From: Lineus longissimus | Lineage: Eukaryota > Nemertea > Pilidiophora > Heteronemertea > Lineidae | Assembly (NCBI RefSeq): GCF_910592395.1 | Contig: NC_088313.1 | Location: forward strand, 498,501-562,500 | Length of the DNA: 64,000 bases | Direction: 5' to 3' | Part shown: one piece after another, positions 28,027-62,287 of the stretch | How positions within the stretch are numbered: the stretch's first letter is position 1 | Layout: every line of letters starts with the position of its first letter | Program-made: the position numbers and the translations under genes | Notes under the pieces: generated by a model | Seen by the model: the letters and a program-made list of their open reading frames with translations, nothing else | The model's database searches: none | Told to the model about the DNA's origin: nothing

Positions 28027-28062
28027 TTTATATATACATATATATATATATTATATAAATTT
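28027..28062. repeat. TA-rich microsatellite
   Basis: A run of TATATA repeats with minor interruptions directly abuts the palindromic satellite. Confidence 0.85.
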
Positions 28063-28088
28063 TAGTTTTACACTATTATGTAAGTGCA

Positions 28089-34710: not shown

Positions 34711-34770
34711 ATGTCGCTCGATTTATTTGCATTTTTGCAAATCTTTGATAATTTATTTACGTTGAAATAA
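34711..34770 (+). CDS. possible upstream ORF of the giant gene
   Basis: ATG at 34711 opens a 19-codon frame ending in TAA at 34768-34770, five bases before the presumed start codon at 34776. Further upstream ATGs occur near 34689 and 34698. If the transcript begins upstream of these, they would be expected to lower translation of the main frame. The transcription start is unknown. Confidence 0.3.
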   Translation: MSLDLFAFLQIFDNLFTLK

Positions 34771-37700: not shown

Positions 37701-40700
37701 CTTACATTTTGTTCGTGACCTGCTCACATTTTGTACGCGACCTGCTAACATTTTGTTTATTGTTGTATTCACATATTTTTGTGTTTTTGTTTTGAATATT
37801 CTGTTCCATGTGTATTTTTATATTATTTTGCCTTTGATATCAGAAAGCTTGCCATATCTATTTTTGCTCACATTTTGGTGTTATTTTTGCGACATCTTAT
37901 CTGAATTGATTGATCATTTTCAGCTGGTAAGGTTAGTACACATGTTTCAAGCACTCAGTTCGAAGACTGTATGTCTTTGGAAACCTTTGAGCTAGACAGA
38001 AGAGTGCGAAAAATATTGGATGTGACAAGCAGAGTTTCACCGGTAACTCCAACGCTGGATAGAATTTCGCCCGTAGTTGCCTCCTTTGATGAATGCATGA
38101 CAAAGCTTACCACTGGTGACTGCGTGTTGAACAATTACATACCTTCACCTGAACTGGCACGGATGCTTCTCAATCCCAATGATGTGATAGCCAAGATGGA
38201 CTTTTATACCAAGGAGATTATAAAAGTGACCACGTCGACCATCGAGATCAATTTACGGAACAAGCGTATTGCTATTATGCCGTACGGTGTGTTTTGTTCA
38301 CCATTTTACCAAGGACTATATGGAAAGGAGAAAGATGAGTACTACCTAAATTTCATTTGCGAGAAGGGCGAGAGGATGGGGATATTAAGTGGTGATCGGA
38401 GTGAAAAAAGACAGAAAGAAGTTTACTTTACTTGGTACTCAGCAGGATTCCATTCTTCAGACAAGCTGGATGAATTATACCACAGGTATATGTACTGTCT
38501 TGAGGACTTTATGCAAACGGCAAAGTACAGTGAATTGTACTGTACTAGAGGTCGGTTTCGTCAGTCGAGACCTGAGTACATTGCGAAGGCGACACCAGCT
38601 TGGACTAGTACTGAGATGAATACCTGTCAGTCTGAGACCACAGTGCAAGACAGAAGGATACACCTTGTTGAAGAGCTGAGAATGGCCAGTTTGAACAGTC
38701 CAGTGGAAGATCTTGCTCGAGCGAGGATTGATGCCAGAAGACTTGCCGCAGCTCTTACCCCAAGCCCAACCTGCATGCAGTACACCAGGACTGAAGTTGC
38801 TGGGGACCCTACCTACGGTGTTACAACTCCAGTGGATACAGAGCAAACTCTTGTTGCGGACACTTGGACTAACTCTCCAATTGTTGCTGATGATGTTTCA
38901 AAGCCTGTCCCTGAGACACCTGTCCCTGAGACACTATATGTTCCAGACAGAGTCTCCAGAGTGATTATTGAAAGCTTTCCAGGATATTTCCCAGAAGGGA
39001 CCAGAATCAATCCTGACACCAGTGAAATAGAGCCACCGATTGAGGACGTTATCCGAGAGAATGCTGCATACATTGCTCCTCCACCCTACATTCCTAGACC
39101 TGCCTACACTACAACTCCATTCATAACTTCGGAAGAGTCTGTTGCTGAAGTACCAAGTCATGATATCAAACCAGTCCCAACTATTGGTAGTGGAATGACC
39201 ATTCAAGAACGCTACAGCCAGGCGTCTACTTCAGTTCCAAGTTCAACCTACTCCCAGCTTCGAAGTGTTGATATCGCCAGGACTCCTGAAAAGGACCACC
39301 AAGCTTATCCTTCAGTTGCAAGTCCAGCCTACTCTTCAGTTCCGAGTGTTGGGAATGCATGGACCACTGGAAAAGACTACAGTGAAGCTTCCACTTCAAG
39401 TCCAGCCTACTCTTCAGTTCCAAGTGTTGGGAATGCATGGACCACTGGAAAAGACTACAGTGAAGCTTCCACTTCAAGTCCAGCCTACTCTTCAGTTCCG
39501 AGTGTTGGGAATGCATGGACCACTGGAAAAGACTACAGTGAAGCTTCCACTTCAAGTCCAGCCTACTCTTCAGTTCCAAGTGTTGGGAATGCATGGACCA
39601 CTGGAAAAGACTACAGTGAAGCTTCCACTTCAAGTCCAGCCTACTCTTCAGTTCCGAGTGTTGGGAATGCATGGACCACTGGAAAAGACTACAGTGAAGC
39701 TTCCACTTCAAGTCCAGCCTACTCTTCAGTTCCGAGTCCAAGTACAGCCTGCTTCTCAGATCCAAGTGCAGACAATAGAAGCACCGCTGGAAAGGACCAT
39801 GGCCATGAGTACCCATCAGTTCCATGTCCAGCATACTCTACTCTTCCAAGTCGTGATATTGTAGGGACAATTGGGAGAGACTATAGTCAAGCGTACTCTT
39901 CACTTCATAGTAAAGCCTTCTCTTTAGTCTCAAGCCCTGTTGACACTTCAGTTCCAACTGTCGATGGTGCATGGACCATTGAAAAAGACGTTGATCGAAA
40001 GTATGCTTCAAGTGAAGATGCATGTTTTTCCCCTCCAGTAAACATTAATACCTCTTCTGAAACCATGACTGAAGTGGCAACCGATGTGGCAGATACCCTC
40101 AGAGATACTTTCACTTTGTCAGCTTCCATCAAGATGCAAAGAAACCCTGAAGAAGTTCATCCAGTTTCCTGTTCAGTAGGAATCCAAGCAGATGCAGATG
40201 AAATTCTGAGGGAGACTGGTTCAAATTCTGTACATGCTGCGTCGCAGGTGGAGTCAAGTACGATTCTGGAGGAAACCAAGGCTTACCCTCGATCAGAAAC
40301 TGTGGGGCCAAAGGTAACCTACAACTCTGTTGCTGTCCAGGTAGATTCAAAGTCTTTATTGGAAGAGACAATCGAATTGAGGTTCGGATCAAATGCTGAA
40401 AGGTTCCACAGCATGGATGAGAAAATCCAGAAAATGCAAGACTTGCTTGACATGAATAGCTTTGTTTTTGTTGACGTTATTCCATGCTCATGCAAGCTCC
40501 CAGTTAGTCATGATGAAGAGAGGATGACACGCAGCTCTGCAATCCCCTCACCATTTGATGTTGAACATGCATCAATTGAAGGTCTGGCTGATGAGGATTA
40601 TCCAGATCCAGTCATGACTTCAGCAGATTCGGACAAGTCTGGAGGCATTTGGGAGGATTTGGAGGTGAAAAGTCCAAAAGAGGATGCAAAGCCGTCGGGC

Positions 40701-43700
40701 AAGTTCATTCCTGCAGACTCCAAAGCTGCTGCAGTTAAAGTTGCCCCTGCTGTTGAAGAGATGAGTACAGCCAAGTCTGAAAAGGATGATGACATTTGGG
40801 ATGATTTTGGAGTTGAAAGTCCACCAGAGGATACAAGGCTTCTGGGTGAAGTTGGACTTGTTGACTCATCATTGCAGGTCAATGAGGATGCTCCAGCTAT
40901 CTATATAATCAAGGATGATGAGTATTGTGATGATGTATCTCGAAGTTCTTTTCAAATCTCATGCTCTGAGACACACAGTTCCAGCTACTCACATAGTACT
41001 TCCAATGTTATCACGAACCAGACACCAGATGATGAAGAAGATAAGAGCGCCGAATCAATCATTGAGACTGAAAGCGACTTGAATGGTGAAAGTGAGCTCG
41101 AGGATGAGATGGATGTCTTGGACCTTGATGCTGGTCCAAAGGAAGATACAAGATCACTTGTTGAAATAGCACCATCAGAGACTCCAGTTACAGCCGATGA
41201 GGATGGTTCAATTGCTGAAATGCTCAGTACTGCAGATTCTGACAAGGACGATAACTGTTGGGATGATTCAGAACTTGATTGTCCCCAAGAACAAGATTTA
41301 ACGCCTAAAGATATGGTTGACATTCCAGATGCAGCCAATAAGGATGATAGATCTGTTGAAGTCTTGAGTTCAACAAAATTGGACGAGGAAGATGATTTTT
41401 GGCATGACAGTAGTCTTACAAAAAAACCACGAGACAAGATTAGACCTGTATACTGTTCAGGAGCATCCATTGCTAATTGGCAACCTGTTGCAAGTACCAG
41501 TGCAGTTGTATGTGCCGAGTGTTTCAAGCCAAAGGATGAAAGTGAGAATACTTCATCTCCAGTGATGGAGTCAACGTCAACCAAGGATGAGGATGAGGAC
41601 ATGATGTCTGAATCAATCATTGAGACTGAAAATGACTTTTATAGTGATAGTGAGATTGAGGATGAACTGAATGTCTTGGATCTGGATGCTGATCAAAAGG
41701 ATGATACAAAGGCCTTGGATGAAGTTTCTCACGTCGACTCTACAGTGACATTCGGCGAGGATACTCTACCGATTGAAATTGTGAGTACTGTCGAATCGAA
41801 CAATAAAGGTGACCTTTGTGATGATAGACCTGATAGTCCCAAGGAAGATGCAAAGCTGTTGGACGATAGTGTGCCTGCAAAGTCTCTAGTTCCAGCCCAC
41901 AAGGATACTGCAGCTGTTGAAGATGTGAGGGCGGTAGATTCTGACTTTTGGAATGACAGTAGTCACACAGATGAAGTAAAGTCTGTTGACGATGCTGTGA
42001 GTGTAGAACTTCCGCTCGCAGCAAATGAGAGTGCTGAACCTGATAACGGTTTGAGTGCAGCAGAAGCGGTTGAGTATGATTCCGTGTCCAGTGATTTCGG
42101 AGACAGAGGTTCCACGGAGAATGTAAATCTGATGGATGAGATCGAGTTAGAAAAGATGGATACAAAGCCTACTGAGGATGATGAAGAGAGTATTTCTGAG
42201 TCAATCATTGAGTCTGAAAATGAGTTTGATTGTGATAGTGAAATTGGAGGTGAGCTAAAGGTCCTGGTCCTTGATGCTAATCAAGATAATGTTACGAAGC
42301 CACTCAATGAGGTAACACCACTAGAATCTCCAGTTCCTGGTATGAAGAATGCAGCAGCTGCTGAAATCCGTTCAGGAAAGGTTTTTGAAACTGAAAATGA
42401 GGTTGTTAATGAGTCGAATATGTGCGACCTTAATGCTGGCTTAAAAGATGTGTTGGCACCAGGCAGAGGTAGTGATGAGGATGAGTTCCAGTGCAGCACA
42501 CTTGAACCAACCAGGGTTTCCTCAGATGATCAAAGCTTCCTGCGGCCTCCCACTGAGGTAGTAGACGAGACTGACAAAGCTGGTACACAAAATCTCAATA
42601 ACACAATTCGGTCACTGAAGGGAAAAGGTGTCCAATGGCGTTCAAGGAAAATACCAACCAAGGTAGAACTTGAAAGTGGAGAGGAGGAGAGCCAGATTTA
42701 CATCTTTGCACCAAAAAGGGTAGCACCTCCACCGCCTTCCTCCAGTGAGTCAGAAGAATCTGGTACAGATGAAGACCAAGACAAAGTTGGCAATGAAGAG
42801 AAGGTTGACACCAAGGAGGTTGTCTGGTCAGATGATGAGGAAGAGGAACGGAAGAAAGTCTCAGATGATAGAGAAGTTAAAGACAAGTGGGCATGGTTAG
42901 ATGAATTTAGCGATAAAGCTATTGAATATGTGGATTCCGATGCTGATATCACCCCGACTCCCCCCACTGAGGAGTACTCCATCCCTGAAGTCGAAAATGC
43001 TGGTGTTATCCTGAATGGAGGCATTCTTAGTAATACAAAGACTAAAAAGATTTTAAGTGGTCTAAATGGGGAGAAGAAGGCTACAAAGAAGAGTGTCAAG
43101 ATTGGCAAACACAAGCTACGCGTTCAGTTCTTTGAAGAAAACGCATACGGTGAACAAAAGGATTTGCAGTGGGAGGAGCACGACTGGGACGAGATACCTG
43201 TCCGAAAGATGTTTATGGATCCAATGACAATACCAGAGGAAGATCGTTTCCCACACTACAAAATGGACTACAACATTATATCTGCTGAAGAGCAGGTCTT
43301 GAGAGACACTAAGTATGATCAGCTGAATGCAGATGAAGCTGATGATCATTACGAGGAGGACTTTGAAGAAGAAGTGTCTGCTGATATCATTGGGTCTTCT
43401 CTACCGCTTGAAGAAGAAACTAATGAAAACACAGAGGATGACATTGATTCTATTGCTTCAGATGTCCCAGAGTTAGAGTTAGATGAGTTTGAGGACTTTG
43501 ACTGGGAACAAAATGGAACTAATCTGGTAAAAAACAAGGATCAGATGACGAAGGGTTCCAAGACTCAGTCTGAAACAGTAGCTACAAAACCTGCTGATTC
43601 TGAAGTCTACTCAAATCCTGATGAAGAGGCCAGTCTGGCTGAGTCAGACATAGAAACTGAGGATATCAGCATTGAAGAGGATGTGAACTACAGAAATACA

Positions 43701-46700
43701 GAAAATGTTGTTTGGTTTGACATTGAAAGGACTGAGACGACTCAGGCCAAGGACCCACCCAGGAGGTCTGCTGATTCTGAAGACAAGTCAGACCTTGATG
43801 AAGAGGCCAGTCTAGCAGAATCAGATGTCCAAACTGAGGATATCAGCATTGATCAGGATGTGGACTACAGAAATACAGAAAATGATGTTTGGTTTGACAT
43901 TGAAAGGACTGAGACGACTCAGGCCAAGGACCCACCCAGGAGGTCTGCTGATTCTGAAGACAAGTCAGACCTTGATGAAGAGGCCAGTCTGGCAGAATCA
44001 GATGTCCAAACTGAGGATATCAGCATTGAAGAGGATGTGGACTACAGAAATACAGAAAATGATGTTTGGTTTGACATTGAAAGGACTGAGACGACTCAGG
44101 CCAAGGACCCACCCAGGAGGTCTGCTGATTCTGAAGACAAGTCAGACCTTGATGAACAGGCCAGTCTGGCAGAACCAGGTGTTCAAACTGAAACAGAGGC
44201 CAAGGCCAAAGCTGTGAATAAGCAGAGTGAAACAACTGAGGCCGAGGTCAAATGTGTCAATAAGCTGAGTGAGTCAGTGGCACAGGTAGAGGATGTGAAT
44301 GAGTTGAGTGAAACAGAGGCCAAAGCAAAAGGGGCTGTAGCTGCAGCAGGCATTGAGCCTCTAGAATTGAAGCCAGCAGCTCTGCCATTTTTCCTGAAAC
44401 CAGCCTTAGGAAAGAGTATTGGAGGTCTGGAATCAAGAGGAGTTCTACCTTCCTTAGCAGGAATAGGCAGCAACCAACAGTTACCTGGACTTCTTGGCAT
44501 TGAGCCCATTGCTCAAGGAAAGAAAAAGAAAAAATCAAAAAAAGCGGGGAAAAAGAAGAAAAAGGCGCAGACTGAGTCGACCGAGTGTGATATTGAAAGG
44601 AAAGAAGTCAATGATATTGTCAGTGTGAAAAGGGGTGATTCCTTGTTGACTAGTGAAAGTGAACAAGGTTATGTTGATAGTGTGACTGGAGAGACAGTTG
44701 TCAACGAGGTCAGAGTGGAAGGTGTGAATGAGCTGAGTGAAGTTGAGGTTGAAGTTGATGTTGTGAAAGAGCCAAGTCAAGCACAGACACATATAGAAGT
44801 TGTGAGTGGTCTGAGTGAAACAAATAGCAGTTCAGACATTGTGAGTGAGCCGCATGAATCAGAGGTCAAAGCAGAAGCTTTCCATGACTTGAGAGAGACT
44901 GTCATTGGCGAGAATGTAAAAGAGGCTGAAGATGAGATAGACAGTGAGGTCAAAGTAGAAATGGAGGACATTGACAAATATTCCAAGGCCAATGTCAAAG
45001 TCAAAGAGGGAGAGATCAGACAAACTTTAGCTAATGTAAAAGAAACAGTAGCTGTGACATCGCCTGAGGTCAGAGTAAAGAGTAAGATGATAGAGGTCCG
45101 TAAATCACACAACGCATCAACATATAGTTGTGAGTGGCAGGTGGATGCTGATTCATCAGATGATGAAATTGAAGCGATGTTGGCAATGATCTCTCAGCAG
45201 TACGCATCGAACACAGTGACCCCTGTGTTGCCAAGCCAGGCAGTTGAAATAGCCGAACTGAAAGAGGAGATTGCAGAAGAAACGGTCCTACCTGATATCA
45301 TGCAAGCAGAAAAAGATGATGTGAATGGCCAAAGTGAAATAGAGGTCAAAGCAGAGGTTGTGAATGGGCTGAGTGATACCAAGGCTGCTGTCAACATTAG
45401 AAATGCAACGAACGAAACAAAGACCAAAGTAGAAGATGCAAATGAGCTGATTGAAAAAGATGGCATTGAGGCCAATGTAGAGGTTGAACAGAATGATACA
45501 GGTGCAGAATTAGCAGATCCCAGTATCTTCCCATTGAGCAAGGAGATTGAAGACATCCAATCAGAGGTTGATGACATCCAATCAGAGGTTGATGACATCC
45601 AATCAGAGGTTGATGACATCCAATCAGAGGCTGAGGCAGAGGAGAAAGGTCTGGATGAACTGTATGATATATCTGATGCCACTAGCCTAGAGGATGTACC
45701 ATCCTCCTACTCCCATAATTCCAGAAACAAGTCATATGATTCAGGTGATTCTTATAGCTTTGTTGGAAATGAGTTGAATGAAACTCTCGTGTCTCTTCCG
45801 ACTGCTGAATATTCCATGGCAGAAGGTTCTCAACAGGCCCCAGCTTATGGACCAGCCAACCCGATATCAGATAAACCTGTTAGTGATGGTCAAGTCTCCA
45901 GAGGTGATAGACCACAAGAAAGTGATATCATGGAACAAAACTCAACATTGACAGTGTCCGCACCGCACGAGGTTCAGCTTTCAAGTGATGCTTTTGTTGA
46001 GGACTTCTTGAACTATACAGTGCAATATGTAGAGAAGATTGAGGCTGCTGAAGTTCAAGATGAAGAAAAAATTCAGACTCAGACATTTAACTTCAAGTGG
46101 CAGGCGTTGGAGGACAAAGACAAAACTGGAAATGCAGAAATAATAAATTGCGAGGAAGAGAAATGTAGTGAAATAGGCAATGAGAGTGGCACAGAGTCAG
46201 AGGACAGTGACGAAGAGTGGTCCAAGGCACTACAAGAGACAAAGCCTACAGAGGGCTTAGCAGATATAAGAGGTGGAAGTGTGAGTGAGAGTTGTCCTTC
46301 TATTGAAGAGGACATTGGTATTATCTCTTTGGAACTTGCTCAAAAAAGGGTAGTGGCATTTTGTGAAAAGCTTAGAGAGGACTTGCCAGAGCAGCTCCTA
46401 AACAAAGATATGAAATTACCTTCGATGTCACCAGAGCTGGTGGAGCAATTTGATGACATTGAACTTGTTGACAATTGGTCATTGGATTCATCGGATTCTT
46501 GGGCTGATGACTCACAGGATGAAATAATGGAGATCATGAAGCCACTCCAGGGTAGCTTCTTAGACTTGACAAATGAATTCAATCCCAATCAGAATGACGA
46601 GAAAATGAAAATTGAGGCCCAGTCTGAGCCAGCGGAGAGTTGTCCAGACAAGAAGGAGGATACCTTCATTAACTTTATGTGGCAAGCTCTGGAAGCGGGA

Positions 46701-49700
46701 AAGAAGAGGTCAGCTGTTGCTCCAGATAAAGCCGTAGATAACGCGGATAAAGAAATTGAATTCAGTAGAGGCAGAATTGTGCGCACAAGCTCACTCAGAA
46801 AGGCTATTGAAAGTGTTGCCAGTGGTCAACTGAGAGGATCAGCATCAAACGAGTTGTTGACACAAGAGTTGTCATTGGCCTACACTGAGCAGCTGTCAAG
46901 TGGTGCATTTATTGATGAATTTCTCAAGTATACAGTGAAATTCGAAGAAGAACAAAGGGCCACTGAGGCACACCACAGACAGAAGGCAACTGAGGAGCAA
47001 GACACACAACAAGAGACAACTGAGGACGAAGACAAATGCAAACAAAAAACTACTGAGGATGAAGATGGAAAACTCAGTCAGACGACAACATTCCGTTTCA
47101 AGTGGAAGGCACTAGAAAAGAAGGAAAAGGAAAAACCTAAAACTGAAAAATTAGGCGTACCAAGTGATACTGTATCTGATGAAGACAAAGTGTTGTCTGC
47201 TACTCCTGAAAATTTGAGTCCATGTGGCTTGAAAACAAAGGAAGCATTGACTGCAGAGGTCCAATTGCCATTAGAAAAGCTAAAGGCAGCCTTTGGAAGT
47301 ACTGTCAGAAGAGTGCTTTCTGATGGAGAAGTTGTGGAGGGAAAATCCAGTACTGACAGCTCCATTCATGCTGCCTCAAAAGAACCAAAGCACTCATTGT
47401 CATCAACGTCTGTTAAAGGACAGGCTTTCATACCACATGACAAGTATGAGGAGGACCAATTGGGCCATTCTTTCAACATTGCGATGAAGCTACCAACAGT
47501 GTCCCCGGGAGTGATGAATATTGCAAAGCAGGTGAGAATGGCCGATGAAGGCGATCTTCTTCAGTATCAAATGCATGCGTCTGTTTCGTTGGATGATGAA
47601 TCAGATGATGAGATCATTGCCATTGTCAACCCACTGCATGAAAACAGCCCTGAATTAAAGGACCATCAGTTGACTGAGGTCAGTGGGGAAAATGACATGC
47701 ATGCTTTCAGTGTAGTAGAGCAAGAAATGCCAGAGAAGAGGCTGCCTACAAGAGAGGAGGCTGTTGGACCAGAAGACCTGGTAACGCAAGGGAAGGAAGT
47801 TCCCTTGTCAAGTGATGCATTTGTGGAAGAATTCCTCCATTACACAATTGATTATGAAGAGAAGAAACGGACTGCTGAAGATCAAAATGAGGAGAAAGTT
47901 CAGACAGAAACATTCAATTTCAAATGGCAGGCTTTGGAAGATATGCAAGCAACCAAGAGTGTTGACAGAGGCAAATGTGTGAAACCTGAAGAATATGATG
48001 ATTCAGAGCAATGCCTGGAAAGAGATTTCAAGTTACCATCACGTGCTCCACGAGTGCAGAACATCGCAGAGCAGATCAGGAAAATGGATGAAGACATGCT
48101 GCCTGATTCCGAGCAGTTGGGTTCATCTGATTCTTGGGAAGATGTGTCAGAGTCAGATATTGATGAGGCGATCATTGAAATTGTCAATCTCAATGCAGTG
48201 AATGAAATCATCCCTGACTTGGTGAGTGAACCTGACCACGGGCAAAGTTGCAAGGAAAAAGATAATTACAACAACAACCTGAACACGACAAAGAGACCGA
48301 CCAATATGGACAAGATCACAACAGTTCTCGAAGATGAAAAAGACCAAGTTGAGGATTCTGTCGAAAGAGTATTCAAGTTACCATCGAGGTCCAAAAGAGT
48401 GTGGAACATCGCAGAGCAGATCAGGAAAAAGGATGAAGACAAGCTGTCTGATTCCGAGCAGTTGGATTCATCTGATTCTTGGGAAGATGTGTCAGAGTCA
48501 GAGTCAGACCCTGCTGATGAGATCATTGAAATTGTGAATCCAGATTATGAAGACGGTCCTGAGCTGATGGCTGAAGCTGACCCCATGCAGCATGGTGAGG
48601 AAGAAGAGGATGCTGACATGGCAAACAACACGAAGGAAACACAAGACACACCTGCAGTTTCCATCGACGAGATGGAGAGAGCTACTACTCCTCTTATTGA
48701 TGACGACTTTAGCTGCAGCTTAGTTTGTGTTAGTACTAGTACACTATCTGGTGAATCTTTTCCTGACCTTCCTGATGACGTCATGGAATATATCAATGAG
48801 GTTTACCCAGGCCCAGTCCCTAGTTGGGATGGTACAGGAGTTGTACAAGATATTCCCTCATTTCGAGAGTCATTTTACATGGAGGCAGAAGAGAATACCA
48901 AGACACGACGTGGGAATGCAGAGGAGAGCAGTAAAGCAGTGATCTGCAGGAGTGAGGAAAATGCTGATGTGGCAAACGTTGACAGATACAAAGGCAAACC
49001 AGTTGAAGTAAAAACTGCCAGAGACAGTTTAGAACCTAATAAAATTACCAAAGAGTATACCCAATATCCAGCTGCCAAAGACAGGTGTGAAGGCAATACT
49101 GCCAAAGACAAAACAATAGAAGTGAAAGCTGCCAAAGACAGTTCAGAATTTAATCCTATCAAACTAAGTACCCATGATCCAACTGCCAAAGACAGTTGTG
49201 AAGACAAAACTGCCAGAGACAGTCCTATTGGTCTCGCTGCCAAAGACAGTGATGACAAGAAGCCTGTATTTGTATCTGAAGGAAGGATGAATGTTTCACA
49301 GCAAGGAACTAATTCCTGTAGAATTGAGGTTGCAGTCACCAATGATACTAAGAAGGATGTATCCATTAGGATCATAGATGAAGTGGACTCTGTTAATGAA
49401 TCAGCAGAGGCTCCTTGTGTTCAGAGGGAAAGCCATACTCCAGCTCCCAGTGAGCCAGCTGTTGAAAACGAGATTGACGATGATGAGAATAGCTGGGATG
49501 AGGACTCTGTGAGTGAATCAGCAGAGGCTCCTTGTGTTGGTAAGGAAAGCCATGCTCCAGCTCCCATGGAGTCAGATGTTGAAAACGAGATTGTCGATGA
49601 TGAGAATAGCTGGGATGAGGACTCTCAGAATGAATCAGCAGAGGCTCCTTGTGTTGGTAAGGAAAGCCATGCTCCAGCTCCCAGTGAGCCAGCTGTTGAA

Positions 49701-52700
49701 AACGAGATTGTCGATGATGAGAATAGCTGGGATGAGGACTCTGAGAATGAATCAGCAGAGGCTCCTTGTGTTGGTAAGGAAAGCCATGCTCCAGCTCCCA
49801 GTGAGCCAGCCATTGAAAACGAGATTGACGATGATGAGAATAGCTGGGATGAGGACTCTGAGAATGAATCAGCAGAGGCTCCTTGTGTTGGTAAGGAAAG
49901 CCATACGAGAGCTACTACTCCTCTTATTGAAGACGATGTTAGCTGCAGCTTAGTTTGTGTTAGTACTAGTACACTATCTGGTGAATCTTTTCCTGACCTT
50001 CCTGATGACGTCATGGAATATATCAATGAGGTTTACCCAGGCCCAGTCCCTAGTTGGGATGGTACAGGAGTTGTACAAGATATTCCCTCATTTCGAGAGT
50101 CATTTTACATGGAGGCAGAAGAGAATACCAAGACACGACGTGGGAATGCAGAGGAGAGCAGTAAAGCAGTGATCTGCAGGAGTGAGGAAAATGCTGATGT
50201 GGCAAACGTTGACAGATACAAAGGCAAACCAGTTGAAGTAAAAACTGCCAGAGACAGTTTAGAACCTAATAAAATTACCAAAGATTATACCCAATATCCA
50301 GCTGCCAAAGACAGGTGTGAAGGCAATACTGCCAAAGACAAAACAATAGAAGTGAAAGCTGCCAAAGACAGTTCAGAATTTAATCCTATCAAACTAAGTA
50401 CCCATGATCCAACTGCCAAAGACAGTTGTGAAGACAAAACTGCCAGAGACAGTCCTATTGGTCTCGCTGCCAAAGACAGTGATGACAAGAAGCCTGTATT
50501 TGTATCTGAAGGAAGGATGAATGTTTCACAGCAAGGAACTAATTCCTGTAGAATTGAGGTTGCAGTCACCAATGATACTAAGAAGGATGTATCCATTAGG
50601 ATCATAGATGAAGTGGACTCTGTTAATGAATCAGCAGAGGCTCCTTGTGTTCAGAGGGAAAGCCATACTCCAGCTCCCAGTGAGCCAGCTGTTGAAAACG
50701 AGATTGACGATGATGAGAATAGCTGGGATGAGGACTCTGAGAATGAATCAGCAGAGGCTCCTTGTGTTGGTAAGGAAAGCCATGCTCCAGCTCCCATGGA
50801 GTCAGATGTTGAAAACGAAATTGTCGATGATGAGAATAGCTGGGATGAGGACTCTCAGAATGAATCAGCAGAGGCTCCTTGTGTTGGTAAGGAAAGCCAT
50901 GCTCCAGCTCCCAGTGAGCCAGCTGTTGAAAACGAGATTGTCGATGATGAGAATAGCTGGGATGAGGACTCTGAGAATGAATCAGCAGAGGCTCCTTGTG
51001 TTGGTAAGGAAAGCCATGCTCCAGCTCCCAGTGAGCCAGCCATTGAAAACGAGATTGTCGATGATGAGAATAGCTGGGATGAGGACTCTGTGAGTGAATC
51101 AGCAGAGGCTCCTTGTGTTGGTAAGGAAAGCCATGCTCCAGCTCCCAGTGAGCCAGCCATTGAAAACGAGATTGACGATGATGAGAATAGCTGGGATGAG
51201 GACTCTGAGAATGAATCAGCAGAGGCTCCTTGTGTTGGTAAGGAAAGCCATACGAGAGCTACTACTCCTCTTATTGAAGACGATGTTAGCTGCAGCTTAG
51301 TTTGTGTTAGTACTAGTACACTATCTGGTGAATCTTTTCCTGACCTTCCTGATGACGTCATGGAATATATCAATGAGGTTTACCCAGGCCCAGTCCCTAG
51401 TTGGGATGGTACAGGAGTTGTACAAGATATTCCCTCATTTCGAGAGTCATTTTACATGGAGGCAGAAGAGAATACCAAGACACGACGTGGGAATGCAGAG
51501 GAGAGCAGTAAAGCAGTGATCTGCAGGAGTGAGGAAAATGCTGATGTGGCAAACGTTGACAGATACAAAGGCAAACCAGTTGAAGTAAAAACTGCCAGAG
51601 ACAGTTTAGAACCTAATAAAATTACCAAAGATTATACCCAATATCCAGCTGCCAAAGACGGGTGTGAAGGCAATACTGCCAAAGACAAAACAATAGAAGT
51701 GAAAGCTGCCAAAGACAGTTCAGAATTTAATCCTATCAAACTAAGTACCCATGATCCAACTGCCAAAGACAGTTGTGAAGACAAAACTGCCAGAGACAGT
51801 CCTATTGGTCTCGCTGCCAAAGACAGTGATGACAAGAAGCCTGTATTTGTATCTGAAGGAAGGATGAATGTTTCACAGCAAGGAACTAATTCCTGTAGAA
51901 TTGAGGTTGCAGTCACCAATGATACTAAGAAGGATGTATCCATTAGGATCATAGATGAAGTGGACTCTGTGAATGAATCAGCAGAGGCTCCTTGTGTTCA
52001 GAGGGAAAGCCATACTCCAGCTCCCAGTGAGCCAGCTGTTGAAAACGAGATTGACGATGATGAGAATAGCTGGGATGAGGACTCTGTGAATGAATCAGCA
52101 GAGGCTCCTTGTGTTCAGAGGGAAAGCCATACTCCAGCTCCCAGTGAGCCAGCTGTTGAAAACAAGATTGACGATGATGAGAATAGCTGGGATGAGGACT
52201 CTGTGAGTGAATCAGCAGAGGCTCCTTGTGTTGGTAAGGAAAGCCATACTCCAGCTCCCAGTGAGCCAGCCATTGAAAACGAGATTGTCGATGATGAGAA
52301 TAGCTGGGATGAGAACTCTGTGAGTGAATCAGCAGAGGCTCCTTGTGTTGGTAAGGAAAGCCATACTCCAGCTCCCAGTGAGCCAGCTGTTGAAAACGAG
52401 ATTGTCGATGATGAGAATAGCTGGGATGAGGACTCTGTGAGTGAATCAGCAGAGGCTCCTTGTGTTGGTAAGGAAAGCCATGCTCCAGCTCCCAGTGAGC
52501 CAGCTGTTGAAAATGAGATTGTTGATGATGAGAATAGCTGGGATGAGAACTCTGTGAGTGAATCAGCAGAGGCTCCTTGTGTTGGTAAGGAAAGCCATAC
52601 TCCAGCTCCCAGTGAGCCAGCTGTTGAAAACGAGATTGTTGATGATGAGAATAGCTGGGATGAGGACTCTGTGAGTGAATCAGCAGAGGCTCCTTGTGTC

Positions 52701-55700
52701 GGTAAGGAAAGCCATACTCCAGCTCCCAGTGAACCAGCTGTTGAAAACGAGATTGTCGATGATGAGAATAGCTGGGATGAGGACTCTGTGAGTGAATCAG
52801 CAGAGGCTCCTTGTGTTGGTAAGGAAAGCCATACTCCAGCTCCCAGTGAGCCAGCTGTTGAAAACGAGATTGTCGATGATGAGAATAGCTGGGATGAGGA
52901 CTCTGTGAGTGAATCAGCAGAGGCTCCTTGTGTTGGTAAGGAAAGCCATACTCCAGCTCCCAGTGAGCCAGCCATTGAAAACGAGATTGTCGATGATGAG
53001 AACAGCTGGGATGAGGACTCTGTGAATGAATCAGCAGAGGCTCCTTGTGTTGGTAAGGAAAGCCATACTCCAGCTCCCAGTGAGCCAGCCATTGAAAACG
53101 AGATTGTCGATGATGAGAATAGCTGGGATGAGGACTCTGTGAGTGAATCAGCAGAGGCTCCTTGTGTTGGTAAGGAAAGCCATACTCCAGCTCCCAGTGA
53201 GCCAGCCATTGAAAACGAGATTGTTGAAGATGAGAATAGCTGGGATGAGGACTCTGTGAGTGAATCAGCAGAGGCTCCTTGTGTTGGTAAGGAAAGCCAT
53301 ACTCCAGCTCCCAGTGAGCCAGCTGTTGAAAACGAGATTGTCGATGATGAGAATAGCTGGGATGAGGACTCTGTGAGTGAATCAGCAGAGGCTCCTTGTG
53401 TTGGTAAGGAAAGCCATACTCCAGCTCCCAGTGAGCCAGCTCTTGAAAATGAGATTGTTGATGATGAGAATAGCTGGGATGAGGACTCTGTGAGTGAATC
53501 AGCAGAGGCTCCTTGTGTTGGTAAGGAAAGCCATACTCCAGCTCCCAGTGAGCCAGCCATTGAAAACGAGATTGTCGATGATGAGAATAGCTGGGATGAG
53601 GACTCTGTGAATGAATCAGCAGAGGCTCCTTGTGTTGGTAAGGAAAGCCATGCTCCAGCTCCCAGTGAGCCAGCCATTGAAAACGAGATTGTCGATGATG
53701 AGAATAGCTGGGATGAGGACTCTGTGAATGAATCCGCAGAGGCTCCTTGTGTTGGTAAGGAAAGCCATGCTCCAGCTCCCAGTGAGCCAGCCATTGAAAA
53801 TGAGATTGTCGATGATGAGAATAGCTGGGATGAGGACTCTATGAGTGAATCAGCAGAGGCTCCTTGTGTTGGTAAGGAAAGCCATACTCCAGCTCCCAGT
53901 GAGCCAGCCATTGAAAACGAGATTGTCGATGATGAGAATAGCTGGGATGAGGACTCTGTGAGTGAATCAGCAGAGGCTCCTTGTGTTGGTAAGGAAAGCC
54001 ATACTCCAGCTCCCAGTGAGCCAGCCATTGAAAACGAGATTGTCGATGATGAGAATAGCTGGGATGAGGACTCTGTGAATGAATCAGCAGAGGCTCCTTG
54101 TGTTGGTAAGGAAAGCCATGCTCCAGCTCCCAGTGAGCCAGCCATTGAAAACGAGATTGTCGATGATGAGAATAGCTGGGATGAGGACTCTGTGAGTGAA
54201 TCAGCAGAGGCTCCTTGTGTTGGTAAGGAAAGCCATACTCCAGCTCCCAGTGAGCCAGCCATTGAAAACGAGATTGTCGATGATGAGAATAGCTGGGATG
54301 AGGACTCTGTGAATGAATCAGCAGAGGCTCCTTGTGTTGGTAAGGAAAGCCATACTCCAGCTCCCAGTGAGCCAGCTGTTGAAAACGAGATTGTTGATGA
54401 TGAGACAAGCTGGGATGAAGACTCAAACAATAGTGCAGCAGAGATAGATGAAGGAAATAGCTTGGATGAGGTGAATGACATTTCGACAGATAGCAGAGAA
54501 AATCATTCTTCTGTCTCTGTGATTGATAACGAGGAGAAGAGCTGGGATGAGGGCTCGATAAATGATGTGGCAGCAATTACCCTAGTCACCAAGGAAAATC
54601 AGGTCCCTTGTCCTTCAGACCCAGCGTTTGAAAACAGTTGCAAAATAGAGTTTGCAGTTGCACATTGCACTGATTTAAGAATGAAGGACGCACAAGAGAC
54701 TACTTCATCTGTCACTGAAGATATCAGGTGTGATGAAGACCTAGAGATGTCTGTTGAAGTGATAAGTACAAGAGATGAGACTGGGAAGAAGATAACGGAT
54801 TTAAGCCCATTGCTTGGAAAGAACAAAGCAGCATTGCCAGCTTTGGGAATCGGCAGAAGAGCAGATCCTTTTGGAAAGAAACCTCTTCCTGATCCCTTCC
54901 TTATGAGGACTGAAGAAAATATTCCTGAACTTGGACAGAAGGATGCAATCGAGGGTGCTGCCCTTGAACCTTCACAAGACGTGCTGAAACAGTTTGTACG
55001 GCAGATTGATCGCACTGAAGAAGAGAAATCAACAAACTGCAATTTAAGTTCAGATATTGAAGAGAGGGACCTCTCTCCAAAAACTATGACGGCTATTGAT
55101 CGAATTTGCAGCATATTTCAGGAATTGAAAGAAGATAGAGCCAACCGGATTGATGACATGGACCAAGATCATACAGGTGAACATGATCAGGTGCATGTTC
55201 CCTCCTCACCTTCTGAGATGGCTGTTGAGCGCAGTTGCAAAAAAGAGTCAGAATCTGTAGAAGAACCAGAATTTCTACCTGGTCACCAGGAAATTTGCAC
55301 TTCTGACGACAGTCAGTGCAGTATTCTTTGGGATAAGAAACGACGTTGTTATGTTCTTAACCCTGCTAAATGTGATGTTCTTGATGGTTTGGACAAAGGA
55401 ACTGGTCTGAAATCTGCCTCGAATAAAGATTCAGAGAAGTTGAAGCCTGCGGTGCCTGAAATAGCTAATAGAGTAGATTCTTCTGGTAAGAAGTGGGATG
55501 AAGGATCAAACATTGGATCTGTCTCATATGAAACTTCTGATGAATTGAAGCCCCAGGCACCGGAAATTGCCCAGGAAGCAGATGATTTTGATGAGAAGAA
55601 GTGGGATGAATGTTCGTCATCAGATATGGATTCTGTCTCCTATGAAGCTTCGGAGGAGATGAAGTCCCCTCCACGAGAAATTGCCAGGGAAGAGGATGAT

Positions 55701-58700
55701 TTTGTCAAATGCGAGTGGGATGAATGTTCGTCATCAGATATGGAGTCAGTCTCCTATGAGGCTTCAGAGGAGATGAAGCCCCCTGCACCAGAAATTCCAA
55801 AGGAAGCGAAGGATTTAGTGGAAAAGCAGTGGGATGAACGTTCATTATCAGATATGGATTCTCTCTCCTATGAAGATTCGGAGGAGATGAAGTCCCCTGC
55901 ACCAGAAATTCCCAAGGAAGCGAAGGATTTAGTGGAAAAGCAGTGGGATGAACGTTCATTATCAGATATGGATTCTCTCTCCTATGAGGCTTCGGAGGAG
56001 ATGAAGCCCCCTACACCAGAAATTGGCACAATGGCCGAATCCTCTGAGAGGAAGTTAGATGAAGGATCAAATATTCGATTCGTCTCATATGAAGATTCAG
56101 AGGGGATCAAACCACAGGCAACAAGTATTTTCAAGAAAGCAGATCTGTTTGCAGAAAAGCCCGCACCTGATCCCTTCTTTATGAAGCCTAAAGACACTGA
56201 TGCTCAGCAGAGACTTACTGATCCAATCAGTGGTAATTCACCCAAGTTGAAACAAGGCATGCAGCAAAAGAAAAGACCAGATCCTTTTGGAGAGAAGCCA
56301 AAGCCTGATCCCTTCTTCTTGAAGCCTAAAGAAGTTGATGCCCAACAGACAAAAAAGGATCCAATCCGTCCAACTGGGCTGGCACAGGTCGGTGAAAAAG
56401 TGATATTATCAAAATATTCTGCTGCGCTGCCTAGCATACAAGTAGCTGAGCCTTCAAATAAGGCAACAAATGGGCTGGGCCTGTTACCAATTAGTAGACC
56501 TATTCTGAATTCATTGAATAACTCAGAAATTATCAATGATAGTGTTCATCAGAGAGGTTCAGGTGGCACGCCTGTGTTTTCAACTTACAAAGTCCTTGGA
56601 GCTAAAAGAACACAACCACCTCAAGTTGAACAAGATCCTGCTAAATTCTTGGAGCAGATTGGAATACAGAGAAGTTTTGATCAAAGAGAAAGCGATGGAA
56701 TGCATTTGGACTCTCTGGATGAGCAACCGAGGAAAAGTTCAAAACATGGAAAGGCTAAGCGTATGGAGGATAAAAGCAAAGTCATTAAGCACGATCCATT
56801 AAACTTGAAGAATGGTGGAGAGCCAAAAGCTCACCATGATCCAACCGCACCTAGTCAGGTAGAAGATCAGAGATATTTAGTTGAAGATGCTACTGTCTTA
56901 GTTGAGCAGAGTCTTATCAAGCCACAATGGAATTTGGGTCTGGTTCATGATGAACAGCCAGCACCCTCTCCACCCAGGCAACCAAAAAAGAAATCGTATT
57001 TGCAGAAGTACTTGGAGAAGCAAAGAGCAGCAAAGCACTCTGACCCTGGTAATAAACCGATAGGGACGCCCCCAAGGGTGTATTCCCCACAAAGATATGG
57101 GCAAGGCAGTTGCAGTCCTAGACAGGTAAGAAGTCCAGCTGCTTCAGTAAAAGCCACAAGTTCCCTGGCAAGAGGTCCAGCTGCATTGGCAAAAGCTGAA
57201 TATTGCCTCAAGAACAGTGCATATTCTAAAACGTCCAAGACAGGAATAGTTGCATCACCTTCTTCCAGAGAGAAGAAATTACATCATGATCAAGCAGATG
57301 CCAATGCAGAATTGGCAAAAGTCGATGCAGCGAAAGAAATAATGATGGCAGAGGATGATCCCAGAACAGAGGAGGAATCCAATGAAAATTTGCTGAAAGC
57401 AGCGGCTGAACGAGTCAAGGCTGATACTCGGCGCTTTTTGAAAAAGAGTGAGAAGACAGATGCTGTAGAAAAGTTTTCCTATGTTGATCAACTGAAGTTG
57501 TTCCAAGCTGAGGCAGAACAGGAATTGATTGATCTTGTGGAGGCTTCCGAACGTGAAGCTGCCTTACAAGAACTTAACAATCCAAGACGCTTCCTGAAAA
57601 AGAGTGAAAAACCAAAAGCTTCTACTCCAGAACCAATTGCAGAACAACAAGTAGGGTGGGAGGTTGATGGAAAGTTTGCCTCTATTGAAGAACTAGTGAT
57701 TCAGATGATACCAGACCAAGCTAAAACATGGGAGGAATTGGGTCATTTTGTAGAGCCTGACAAAAGTGAAGTTCCCCTACAAGAACAACCTCCAGTCGTG
57801 AAAAATGATCCCAAACGCTTCCTGAAGAAGAGTGGAAAGGCTAAAACAGAAAGCATACCGAAGCCTTTTACTCCTGAACCAATTCAAGAACCACAAGAAG
57901 AGTGGGAAGACCATGGAAAGTTTGCCTCTGCAGAAGACTTGATGAAGTCAGACCATGCTAGTGCACAGCAGAAATTGGCTGATCTTGTAGAGTCTGCCCA
58001 AAGTAAAGTTCCACTGCAAGCACAACCTTCAGTCGGGAAAAATGATCCAAAACGCTTCCTGAAGAAGAGTGGAAAGGCTAAAACAGAAAGCATACCAAAG
58101 CCTTTTACTCCTGAACCAATTCAAGAACCACAAGAAGAGTGGGAAGACCATGGAAAGTTTGCCTCTGCAGAAGACTTGATGACGCCAGACCATGCTAGCG
58201 CACAGCAGAAATTGGCTGATCTTGTAGAGTCTGCCCAAAGTAAAGTTCCCCTGCAAGAACCTTCAGTAGCGAAGAATGATCCAAAACGCTTCCTGAAGAA
58301 GAGTGGAAAGGATAGGACAGAAAGCATACCGAAACCTTTTACTCCTGAACCAATTCAAGAACCACAAGAAGAGTGGGAAGACAATGGAAAGTTTGCCTCT
58401 GCAGAAGACTTGATGACGCCAGACCATGCTAGCGCACAGCAGGAATTGGCTGATCTTGTAGAGTCTGCCCAAAGCAAAGTTCCACTGCAAGCACAACCTT
58501 CAGTCGGGAAAAATGATCCAAAACGCTTCCTGAAGAAGAGTGGAAAGGCTATAAGAGGAAGCATGTCAAAGCCTTGTACTCCTGAGGCAAGGACACAAGA
58601 CCGAGATCAACCATTTGAGTTGGAAGATGACGGGAGGTTTGCCTTTTCAGAAGAACTGATGATGTCAGGAAATGCTATAGCAGAGCGGGAATTGTCTGCT

Positions 58701-61700
58701 GAGTGGGAAGAGGATGAACGACTAGCTGTAGCAGATGACCTGGTGATGGTGCAGCATCCTTGTGCACAGCAGGGATTGGCTGCTCCGTGGCAAGATGATG
58801 AAAGGCTAGCAGAAGAGCTTATGAGGTACGAACATTTTAGAAATTGCGAAAATTCTGAAGATGATAAAAGACTGACCCTAGAAGAAGAAGTGGAGATGTT
58901 GCAACAAGTTTGTGAACAGCAGGGATTGAGTTTTGATTTGGAGGATGATGAAAGGCTAGCCTATGCAAAAGAACTGATGATGTTGCAATATGCTTGTGCA
59001 CAGCAGGGATTGGCTGTTGAGTGGAGTGATGATGAAAGGCTAATTGTAGCAGAAGGAATGATGATGTTGGAACATAATAGAGCACAGCAGGAATTGGCTG
59101 ACCAAAGGCAGAGTGCAGCATCTCAAAAGCATCTTCCATCACAAGAGTCCTCAATTGTGAAGAAAGATCCAAAGCAATTCCATAAGAAAAAGTCTAAAAC
59201 TGATGACATGGCAAAGCCTTCTGCTCCTGAGACAGCACAAAATCCAGAACAACAAGTTTCCAGTGAAAATGATGGAAAGTTCTCCTTTGCGAATGACCTG
59301 ATGTCTGTGGAACGTCCTACACCTCAGCAAGTTCTAGCCGACAGTGCCCAGTTAGTAATACCTCAAAGGAATGATTACCCAGAGGATCTATCATTACTGG
59401 GAAGAAATGATCCGCAGCGTTTCCTGAATAAGAGTAAAAAGCCTAAAACAGAAAGCATGATGAAGTCTTTTGCTTCAGAGGCAAGAAAACCAGATCAAGT
59501 ACAGGAGAATTCATGTGAGGTTGCGAAAAAGTTCTCCTTGGCGAATGACCTGATGGCTGTAGAACGTCCTTCACCTCAGCAAGTTCTAGCTGACTGTGCC
59601 CAGTTAGTAATACCTCAGAGGAACGATTACCCACATGATCCATTTGCTCCTGAAGCAAGGATACAGAATCCCGACCAACCAGTGGAGTGGGAAGACGATG
59701 GGAGGTCGGCCTTTGCAGAGGAACTGATGATGTTGGATCATGCTAGGGCTGAGCAGGAATTGGCTGATCATAGGCGGAGAGCAGCTGCTCAAGGAAATGT
59801 ACCACAGCAAGGAAAGGATCCAAATCGCTTCCTGAAGAAGAGTGGAAAGTCTAAGAAGCCTAGCACAGAAGATGTGGTAGTGCCAGATGCTCAATTTCCT
59901 GCTGAAGTTGAACCAATCTACGATGCAGAGGAAGCAATGTTGTTGGAGAATGCTCAGGCACAGCAGATGGGCAATATTCCACAACCACTTGACAGCAATA
60001 TCGAGGAAATGCAACAAGACACAACTGATGATTCAGAAGTTGATGAATATATGAAAAAGGCGGGGTGGTCAGGACATTATTGCAGACCGGACAGAGCTAT
60101 GGCCCCTCCATCACTGAGGAATATTGCTACTGATCCGCAGTGGGAGGAATTAGATGATCCAGACTTAGCAGATAAGCTTCCATCGGTTCCAAATCAATTT
60201 GAACATCTGCCTTCAACGGGTCCGTTTCTACCCATGCCTCCATCAGGCCAATTTGTGCCTATGCCTCCATTAGGAGCCACTCAATTCACACCTGTACCTC
60301 CATCAAGTCAGGCTCAGTTTACACCTATGCCTCCAACAGGTGCAGCTCAGTTCACACCTGTACCTCCATCAGGTGCAGCTCAGTTCACACCTATGCCTCC
60401 ATCAGACGCAGCTCAGTTCACACCTATGCCTCCAACAGGTGCAGCTCAGTTCACACCTATGCCTCCATCAGGTGCAGCTCAGTTCACACCTATGCCTCCA
60501 TCAGGCGCAGCTCAATTTGCACCTAAGCCTCCATCACTGCCTTCACCAGGTGAACATGTACCAAGAGAAAGGCTTAGGCCATCTCCCAGAAACATTGACC
60601 ATGATTTCTATGGAGGTGAGATCAGTTTGGGTGCACTTCCTGATGATGTGGTACAATATCTGCAGGAAGATTTTCCTCATCAAATGATGCCGCATCACAT
60701 TGAAATGAGAGGACACCAAGGATTAGAACAATTTGAGGATGAATATTATGAAGAAGTTCCAATGGGTGCCACCTCTATGCTTGCACCACCTATAAACATG
60801 ATGCGAAACATTCACCCTCCACCCCAGCGCATAGAAATGATTCCGGATCGACCAGTTGTGAAGATGCAGAATCGTGAGAATGACCTCCCACCTCTTGGCA
60901 ACAAAGGACAACGACCACATACAGCAGCATTAAATCGTAGAGAGATGCTGCAGCCGATCGGTGGGCCAAGCATACCAACAAATAAGAAGACCATGGCTTC
61001 ACAGCAGAGCCCACTGGGGCCAATTTCTCCAAGAGGTCAAAGCCAAAATGCAATTTTGGCACCTGTACCTCCAAAGGGGGCACCACAAGGACACCGGAGA
61101 GGTAACCAGGGTGCGGTTAAGCGTTGGCCTGCTCAAGATTTTGCAGAAGATCGCACAATTTTTATGCAGCAAAATGGACCAGGTGGAATGTCCAGGCCAA
61201 TACCACCTCCAAGGAACGTTGACAAATTCTCGGGAGGTAGGCAAGATACGGGTGGATTTCTTGATCCCATGGTCCAGAGGCGGCACCCTCATGCAGTGCC
61301 ACCTATTGTTGAACTTGGTGGACACAAAAGAAAAGAACGCTTCCACGAGGAAAGTAACCGCCTTCCACCGTTTTCGGGAGCCTCCGTTCTGGCACCACCT
61401 ACATGGCAAGACTCCTTGCCTTCTTTCAAGAACAATGAACAACGACCGCCTCCAATGGCAATGAGGAGACAAGAGATGTCATTGCAGCCGGTAAATAGTC
61501 CACAAAAACCATTGCAGTCAATCAAGCCAAGGACGGAGTCAAAGGCAATGAGGAGACAAGAGATGTCATTGCAGCCAGTGAATAGTCCACAAACACTATT
61601 GAAGCCAATCAAGCCTAGGAAGGAGACTGAGGCAATGAGGAGACAACAGATGTCATTGCAGCCAGTGAATAGTCCACAAACACTATTGAAGCCAATCAAG

Positions 61701-62171
61701 CCTAGGAAGGAGACTGAGGCAATGAGGAGACAACAGATGTCATTGCAGCCAGTGAATAGTCCACAAACACTATTGAAGCCAATCAAGCCTAGGAAGGAGA
61801 CTGAGGCAATGAGGAGACAAGAGATGTCATTGCAGCCAGTGAATAGTCCACAAACACTATTGAAGCCAATCAAGCCTAGGAAGGAGACTGAGGCAATGAG
61901 GAGACAACAGATGTCATTGCAGCCAGTGAATAGTCCACAAACACTATTGAAGCCAATCAAGCCTAGGAAGGAGACCGAGGCAATGAGGAGACAAGAGATG
62001 TCATTGCAGCCGGTGAATAGTCCACAAACACTATTGAAGCCAATCAAGCCAAGGAAGGAGACTGAGGCAATGATGAGACAACAGATGTCATTGCAGCCAG
62101 TGAAAGGTCCATATAAACCGTTGCAGCCAATCAAGCCGAAGAAAGAGACAAAGCAGAAGATGAAAAAATGA
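34776..62171 (+). CDS. giant repeat-built acidic protein, 8,252 aa, 6 exons, unidentified
   Basis: Exons are 34776-34794, 35253-35339, 35863-35979, 36321-36452, 36612-36767 and 37924-62171 (TGA). All five introns are phase 1 with GT/AG borders and the frame is continuous. The last exon is 24,248 bases. Residues 1-186 are Ser/Thr-rich. About 215-380 look globular (TSTIEINLRNKRIAIMPYG, YYLNFICEKGERMGIL, VYFTWYSAGFH). The rest is low-complexity and strongly acidic, with many repeat families listed separately. It also has a Lys-rich run (GKKKKKSKKAGKKKKK, about 2370-2386; possible nuclear signal), a Pro-rich zone (about 7600-7710) and a basic repeated tail. No signal peptide, membrane segment or long heptad coiled coil is evident. 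I do not recognise an orthologue; a multivalent scaffold role is inference. The start ATG is weakly placed (U at -3) but is the only one giving this exon chain. Confidence 0.88.
37693..37758. repeat. 22-bp minisatellite, three copies, in the last intron of the giant gene
   Basis: GCGACCTGCTTACATTTTG-like units repeat three times (start positions 37693, 37715, 37737) with few changes, about 165 bp before the giant exon. Confidence 0.85.
39321..39740 (+). repeat. 78-bp (26-aa) in-frame repeat, five copies plus part
   Basis: Units start at 39321, 39399, 39477, 39555 and 39633, with a partial at 39711. Each encodes SSPAYSSVPSVGNAWTTGK then DYSEAST. Copies differ by almost nothing but one A/G (CCA/CCG), so expansion is recent. 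Ser/Thr-rich, about residues 637-776 of the giant protein. Long open frames on the other frame and strand here are by-products of the in-phase repeat. Confidence 0.95.
43590..44180 (+). repeat. 177-bp (59-aa) in-frame repeat, three copies
   Basis: Each unit carries DEEASLAESDVQTEDISI, VDYRNTENDVWFDIERTET and AKDPPRRSADSEDKSDLD. Exact 177-bp spacing is seen (for example 43766 and 43943). The first copy is the most diverged. Each holds a Trp set in acidic residues. Confidence 0.93.
45545..45635 (+). repeat. 21-bp (7-aa) repeat, four copies
   Basis: Four consecutive units encode IQSEVDD, the last drifting to IQSEAEA. The DNA copies are identical apart from the end, so this is simple slippage within the giant exon. 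Confidence 0.92.
45961..48545 (+). repeat. zone of two alternating diverged modules in the giant protein
   Basis: Module one (SSDAFVEEFLHYTIDYEEK ... ETFNFKWQALED) occurs near 45975, 46890 and 47805, with an extra FINFMWQALE half near 46660. Module two (FKLPSRAPRVQNIAEQIRK ... SSDSWEDVSES ... DEIIEIVNP) occurs near 46405, 47480, 48027 and 48370. Copies share 30-80% of residues, so this is an older layer than the central array. The conserved aromatic positions suggest short binding motifs; function unknown. Confidence 0.8.
48678..54419 (+). repeat. nested tandem array: 708-bp module x3 with 117-bp units x30
   Basis: A 708-bp (236-aa) module starts at 48678, 49908 and 51255. It encodes ATTPLIDDDFSCSLVCVST, LPDDVMEYINEVYPGPVPSW and several A-K-D-x-x-x repeats. 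After each copy come 117-bp (39-aa) units with SESAEAPCVGKESHTPAPSE then PAVENEIVDDENSWDEDS: four full plus 54 bp (49386-49907), five full plus 54 bp (50616-51254) and 21 full (51963-54419). The larger periods are therefore 1230 and 1347 bp, differing by exactly one unit. DNA copies are nearly identical including synonymous sites, indicating recent duplication or gene conversion. Confidence 0.96.
54857..56340 (+). repeat. DPF-containing repeats (three clusters)
   Basis: ADPFGKKPLPDPFLM near 54860, EKPAPDPFFMKPKDTDAQQ near 56155 and PDPFGEKPKPDPFFLKPK near 56277 are related units flanking the 38-aa repeats. DPF is a known binding motif for the alpha-adaptin ear of AP-2; whether it is used here is unknown. 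Confidence 0.75.
55490..56060 (+). repeat. 114-bp (38-aa) repeat, about five copies
   Basis: Units carry KWDECSSSDMDSVSYEASEE then MKPPAPEIPKEAKDLVE. WDE codons are spaced 114 bp apart at 55602, 55716, 55830 and 55944, with a slightly shorter first unit (108 bp from 55494). A degenerate sixth follows. Each has the W-D-E motif. Confidence 0.9.
57421..59900 (+). repeat. RFLKKS repeat region (about 78-79 aa units) with inserted WEDDERLA repeats
   Basis: Near-identical units with NDPKRFLKKSGKAKTESIPK, PEPIQEPQEEWEDHGKFAS and AEDLMTPDHASAQQKLADLV begin at 57804, 58041, 58275 and 58512 (spacing 237, 234, 237 bp). Older copies lie before (57428, 57587) and after (about 59160, 59407, 59815). Between 58600 and 59110 a related 35-40-aa motif (WEDDERLAVADDLVM ... 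CAQQGLA) is repeated about five times. Confidence 0.9.
60205..60540 (+). repeat. 33-bp proline-rich repeat
   Basis: About ten units of GAAQFTPMPPS (11 aa) with small changes (TPVPPS, APKPPS), giving a flexible proline-rich linker before the LPDDVVQYLQEDFP motif near 60636. Confidence 0.93.
61461..62156 (+). repeat. 87-bp (29-aa) C-terminal basic repeat, eight copies
   Basis: Units start at 61461, 61548, 61635, 61722, 61809, 61896, 61983 and 62070. They encode MRRQEMSLQPVNSPQTLLKP then IKPRKETEA. The exact spacing and near-identical DNA indicate recent expansion. They end at KKETKQKMKK and the stop. The high Lys/Arg content contrasts with the acidic centre. Confidence 0.96.
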
Positions 62172-62281: not shown

Positions 62282-62287
62282 AATAAA
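62282..62287 (+). other. poly(A) signal of the giant gene
   Basis: AATAAA lies 110 bases after the TGA at 62169-62171, in AT-rich sequence, giving a short 3' UTR. A later AATAAA at 63200-63205 is an alternative. Confidence 0.7.

Follow-up and report, generated by a model that had tools for sequence, protein, structure and literature searches.

The locus described here raises two questions: whether a frame that stays open for 8,085 codons belongs to a single exon of a real gene, and what a protein built largely of repeats might do. The frame lies on the + strand at 37914–62171 of the 64-kb stretch of contig NC_088313.1 that we analyzed (the window, whose numbering is used throughout); the other frames of at least 250 amino acids (aa) in the stop-to-stop open reading frame (ORF) listing of the window were of 795, 629, and 300 aa. 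We consider it most likely that a giant exon encodes a largely disordered, multivalent, intracellular scaffold with an AHNAK-like architecture but without the PDZ domain of AHNAK, and we give this reading, taken whole, about an even chance of being right. That chance covers its premise, that the locus is a real protein-coding gene, and one of an animal judging by the gene structure.

Splicing of six exons in frame gave 24,759 nucleotides (nt), corresponding to 8,252 aa and a stop codon. The proposed ATG opens coding exon 1, with 19 nt of coding sequence (34776–34794) and the weakest of the five donors (score 3.9), and an in-frame TAA is located 27 nt 5' of it (34749–34751). Coding exons 2 to 5 are of 87 nt (35253–35339), 117 nt (35863–35979), 132 nt (36321–36452), and 156 nt (36612–36767). 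They are followed by the giant terminal coding exon of 24,248 nt (37924–62171, stop codon at 62169–62171) and an AATAAA poly(A) signal (62282–62287); all these features, and the repeats described below, are on the + strand. All five introns had GT-AG ends, and every exon junction was in phase 1. A preliminary description of this DNA had proposed the open exon of 24,248 bases, the five small upstream exons with phase-1 junctions, the 3' poly(A) signal, and the protein size, all of which held up, the exon in both the ORF listing and the spliced translation. The CpG observed/expected ratio was 0.44 and that of TpG 1.35, features of animal type that, with the RhoGAP gene upstream, also speak for an animal source.

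Several measures indicated that the giant exon is coding. Under a first-order Markov model of the exon, 482 stops were expected in frame and none was observed (log10 P of about −216); the other five frames of the exon contained 368, 1,019, 329, 172, and 303 stops. In all 17 blocks (each of up to 1.5 kb) codon position 1 was richer in purines than position 2, although position 3 exceeded both in the three final blocks, so that the classical pattern is weaker toward the C terminus. Of the 148 self-matches within the exon, 145 were offset by a multiple of three, including all 115 ungapped ones, versus 5 of 25 self-matches among the non-coding repeats at 27400–29700. Similarly, the periods of tandem arrays were divisible by three in 14 of 14 rows inside the exon and in 7 of 13 outside (some rows overlap). 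These data show that the frame was kept through the growth of the repeats, which does not imply pressure on the amino acids everywhere.

The encoded protein has a mass of 912 kDa and an isoelectric point of 4.38, and its residues include E (12.2%), S (10.7%), D (9.0%), A (7.8%), and P (7.6%). Between residues 401 and 7600 each block of 400 residues had a negative net charge, reaching −114, and the last 252 residues carried +35. The charge-hydropathy rule classed 16% of 101-aa windows as folded, and judging by composition the protein would be mostly disordered. The best and longest folded-scoring stretch had window centers at residues 167–330; spliced residues 215–380 (38055–38552), which lie in this highest-scoring stretch and are not repeated, represent a candidate folded N-terminal region. 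A PH-like or polo-box-like domain was considered for this region and dropped, as the models behind it had low values in the predicted local distance difference test (pLDDT). No membrane-type hydrophobic segment was found in the whole protein (maximum Kyte-Doolittle value over 19 aa of 1.25, at residue 3586), and we infer that the protein is intracellular.

The first 562 residues are non-repeated. Self-matches (expectation value, E, ≤1e-3) covered 89% of the protein, which is an upper figure as composition correction was off; the earlier claim that almost the whole protein consists of repeats was thus supported as to repeat content, with its extent known only as that upper figure. Tandem periods ranged from 15 to 237 nt, equivalent to units of 5 to 79 aa, mainly 39. 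From the N-terminal side, the exon contains a 78-nt (26-aa) array of 5.4 copies (39319–39737), a 177-nt (59-aa) array of 3.4 copies (43591–44191), and a region in which alignments revealed degenerate modules with the cores TFxFKWxALE and KLPS...SSDSWED...DEIIEIVNP (45960–48572). Three copies of the former module were aligned, the other two sharing 47% and 58% identity with copy 1, and four of the latter (35%, 46%, and 46% identical to the first). Next is a 1,228-nt block present three times within 48677–52481 (48677–49904, 49907–51134, and 51254–52481), copies 2 and 3 being 99.2% and 97.3% identical to copy 1. Each copy holds or runs into a 117-nt (39-aa) tandem array with the W-acidic core SWDE (49385–49904, 50615–51251, and 51962–54424, together spanning 49385–54424), the last array having 21 copies. 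Comparison of the 39-aa units at 30 in-array SWDE sites of 31 showed that 25 of 39 positions were invariant, including S-W-D-E. Further arrays follow: a 114-nt (38-aa) array of 4.5 copies with the core WDE (55514–56025); a stretch that includes the 237-nt and 84-nt arrays and in which eight RFLKK/RFLNK cores are interspersed among W-acidic motifs (57414–59855); and the proline-rich C-terminal part (60213–62168), with net charge +2 and then +35 and including 33-nt and 87-nt arrays. The RFLKK/RFLNK core is basic. We conclude that the repeats arose layer upon layer, through tandem and segmental duplications that kept the frame.

Tryptophan followed by acidic residues recurred above chance in repeats that are otherwise dissimilar (e.g., NCWDDSEL, FWHDSSL, and NSWDEDS). 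The protein has 91 tryptophans, which dereplication reduced to 38 contexts; 16 of these had an acid at +1, 18 had one at +2, and 11 had acids at both places. Random sets of 38 dereplicated non-W positions, drawn 300 times, contained on average 7.7, 8.0, and 1.8 such contexts, respectively, and none of the sets reached the observed values. Ten other residues had acid fractions of at most 0.25 at +1 and 0.27 at +2, with no peak like that of W. Acid before W was not enriched. The patterns W..[LIV] (15) and DPF (6), as well as SH3-type patterns, were also counted, all without controls. The acidic tails that bind Arp2/3 and the Argonaute hooks are possible look-alikes of this motif.

Based on these features, we propose as most likely that the scaffold would be long and flexible, that the small N-terminal region would anchor it, and that the dozens of W-[DE]-[DE] motifs of the acidic body, borne on disordered linkers, would capture many copies of one putative partner, with the basic, proline-rich tail providing a second contact. 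The last exon would have reached its 24.2 kb through successive in-frame duplications, both tandem and segmental. A bolder version, which we hold to be rather doubtful, is that this is a lineage-specific scaffold whose 24-kb exon is among the longest animal coding exons, that its several dozen W-acidic motifs make it a multivalent hub whose partner has a W pocket, be it a TPR, an Arp2/3-type, or a different one, and that copy number is tuned by tandem duplication.

Several observations weigh against the scaffold reading, and we consider them here together with the alternatives. The gene is known here from its sequence alone. AlphaFold, run without an alignment, gave two models of the N-terminal region with mean pLDDT of only 36.0 and 35.6; each placed strands ahead of a helix, an arrangement on which we do not build. 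The W contexts share some ancestry, and part of the motif signal may therefore have been inherited rather than selected; all 30 array units had the W, yet 24 other positions of the 39 were equally invariant. The ratio of nonsynonymous to synonymous differences (pN/pS) was 1.62 in one and 1.02 in the other of the two shorter 117-nt arrays, and 2.73 for the pair of 84-nt units; comparisons among the three segmental copies of 1.23 kb gave 1.07, 1.50, and 1.19. As these copies thus show no sign of purifying selection, much of the protein body may be neutral filler. Elsewhere pN/pS was lower, which speaks for the main reading: 0.40 in the 21-copy 117-nt array, 0.48 in the 177-nt, 0.55 in the 114-nt, 0.49 in the 33-nt, and 0.38 in the 87-nt arrays. 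It was 0 in the nearly identical 78-nt array, which varied at one position only, and synonymous differences were absent from the 21-nt family. The value for the 237-nt family (1.01) was not used, as this family had been cut in fixed steps despite insertions and deletions.

The alternative that best survives keeps the same gene but takes its repeat body for a passive spacer or an entropic spring, in which length matters and not the motifs. A spacer agrees with pN/pS values that approach or exceed 1 among the newest copies, and with a strongly acidic body having few hydrophobic residues. However, a spacer does not account for a W-acidic motif above chance in dissimilar repeats, or for degenerate modules that retain identical cores, such as TFxFKWxALE in three of three aligned copies. 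We regard the spacer as rather unlikely.

The giant exon could also be several exons or belong to several transcripts, with in-frame introns or exitrons giving large and small isoforms. Splice sites were scored with a consensus matrix of generally known frequencies, on which the five accepted donors scored 3.9–10.1 and the five accepted acceptors 3.2–10.0. No acceptor scoring at least 8.5 was found in the giant exon (codon-shuffled control, 0.2), and those scoring at least 3 numbered 20, versus a rate of 51 per 24 kb over the 34 kb upstream, with none between 45725 and 54619. Four of the five accepted acceptors would miss the 8.5 cut-off, however, and the count of acceptors scoring at least 3 matched codon-shuffled sequence (20 versus 18.0 ± 3.7), while those scoring at least 1 were more frequent than in shuffled sequence (96 versus 61.6 ± 6.8). 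The scarcity of acceptors is therefore due to composition and does not prove the absence of introns. In addition, the exon has 67 donor-like sites scoring at least 6.5, exceeding the 53.6 ± 7.3 of codon-shuffled sequence, and AHNAK is described as giving both a giant and a 17-kDa product (PMC10682155). Of 60 listed donor-like sites, 28 occupy the same position of the 117-nt unit (27 TTG|GTAAGG and one TCG|GTAAGG, 49540–54340), and the arrays that carry them contain no acceptor scoring at least 3. Together with these acceptor gaps, the purine-first periodicity in all blocks argues against several exons, which we judge improbable. The simplest reading, inferred from the DNA letters only, is a single exon in a single transcript, in which small internal introns may still lie.

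A satellite-like expansion that is open by chance and contains no functional gene is highly improbable: tandem arrays with recent, nearly identical copies, antisense ORFs of 629 and 795 aa over the same array, and pN/pS near 1 in part of the exon would fit it, but 19,075 of 24,218 30-mers in the exon are distinct, so that the open frame is not the by-product of one satellite, 8,085 codons contain no stop, the first 562 residues, which are not repeated, have an open frame with in-phase splicing, and the repeat offsets keep frame, unlike those of the neighboring non-coding repeats. The two antisense ORFs (− strand, 51949–53838 and 52115–54502, of 629 and 795 aa, respectively) overlie the 117-nt array and are probably a by-product of a stop-free repeat being read in other frames.

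Searches for relatives of the scaffold candidate did not name a family. No curated cut-off was reached in Pfam and NCBIfam with the exon in six pieces, or in Pfam with spliced residues 1–452 and with the N-terminal region alone. The weak matches were all taken as chance. These were DUF4992 (E 0.0015, 18.7 bits versus 29 needed, with no stretch passing alone), LPP (E 0.0026, 18.5 versus 29.1), Pox_A12 (Pfam E 0.0062), and, for the N-terminal region, DUF5717_N (E 0.008, 14.5 versus 25). In PDB sequence searches the beta sliding clamp matched a 400-aa N-terminal piece (E 0.0015 and 0.0063) and disappeared when the 141-aa region was used alone, for which designed leucine-rich-repeat-type proteins were at the top (E 0.00041); both were likewise attributed to chance. 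Internal-module profiles found no PDB match for A1 and three for A2 (best E 0.14), and the 1 and 17 pattern matches in viral and prokaryote contigs, respectively, included no relative. Among Pfam, NCBIfam, and PDB matches, none was convincing enough to name a family, although this does not prove that the gene is an orphan, and public databases may already carry an annotation of it.

Upstream of the giant gene, exons encoding a RhoGAP domain were identified on the + strand (17924–18815; Pfam E 6.7e-11 and 2.1e-11), in a gene whose sequence presumably resembles ARHGAP19. The non-coding repeats include a tandem array at 27506–28026 with periods of 56 and 107 nt and a palindrome-like TCGGATGCGCATCCGA, and a 68-nt array of about 21 copies at 28118–29559 with higher-order periods of 204 and 276 nt. 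Rfam gave no match.

The exon had been described beforehand as longer than the largest human coding exons, with titin put at about 17 kb and MUC16 at about 22 kb. In the published figures used here the largest titin exon is 17,106 bp (PMC9845391, PMC12198301) and the giant exon of AHNAK2 about 17,559 bp (PMC10682155); an exon of 24.2 kb exceeds both. In one article the MUC16 exon ranks second in length within the genome, its size not being stated there (PMC11378355). Among the matches listed from open-licence PMC text there was no animal coding exon of at least 24 kb, which does not imply absence from print. If confirmed by long reads, this coding exon would be longer than the cited titin and AHNAK2 exons. 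It would then offer a clean case for how the spliceosome defines one exon of this size, for the survival of a frame through layered tandem duplication, and for the question of motifs versus length alone in the repeats of giant disordered proteins. Longer internal exons are reported to encode disordered regions more often (PMC9825244), a trend with which the gene here agrees, although its giant exon is terminal.

Of the other giant proteins, titin (connectin) shares a very long coding exon (PMC9845391, PMC12198301), but no Ig or FN3 domain was found in the six Pfam-scanned pieces covering the exon here. The giant mucins MUC16 and Muc14A, the latter of 16,233 aa in its largest Drosophila isoform (PMC8520396), are likewise giant repeat proteins; the protein here differs in its acidic body and in having no signal-peptide- or membrane-type hydrophobic stretch, as judged by hydropathy and not by a signal-peptide program. 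With regard to the motif, the kinesin-1 W-acidic pattern [LMVI][DE]W[DE] fits 1 of the 91 tryptophans, the residues before W being at variance with it. Of the printed motifs considered, the nearest is nevertheless that of the kinesin light chain adaptors, with W then acid and often Ser, as in the SKIP peptide TNLEWDDSAI (PMC6214655).

The closest architectural precedent, missed in the preliminary description, is AHNAK/AHNAK2, a pair of giant vertebrate scaffolds. Small exons beside one giant exon, as found here, are described for these genes, as are a short N-terminal part, long central repeats, and a separate C-terminal part (PMC10682155). The differences are that no PDZ match was obtained here in Pfam scans of the exon or of spliced residues 1–452, that the exon is 24.2 kb versus about 17.6 kb in AHNAK2, and that the units are of 5–79 aa, mainly 39, versus about 128 (AHNAK) or 165 (AHNAK2), a comparison by description. 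Thus, while the gene itself is without a match in the protein-family libraries searched, a scaffold encoded largely by one giant exon would be of a kind already known elsewhere.

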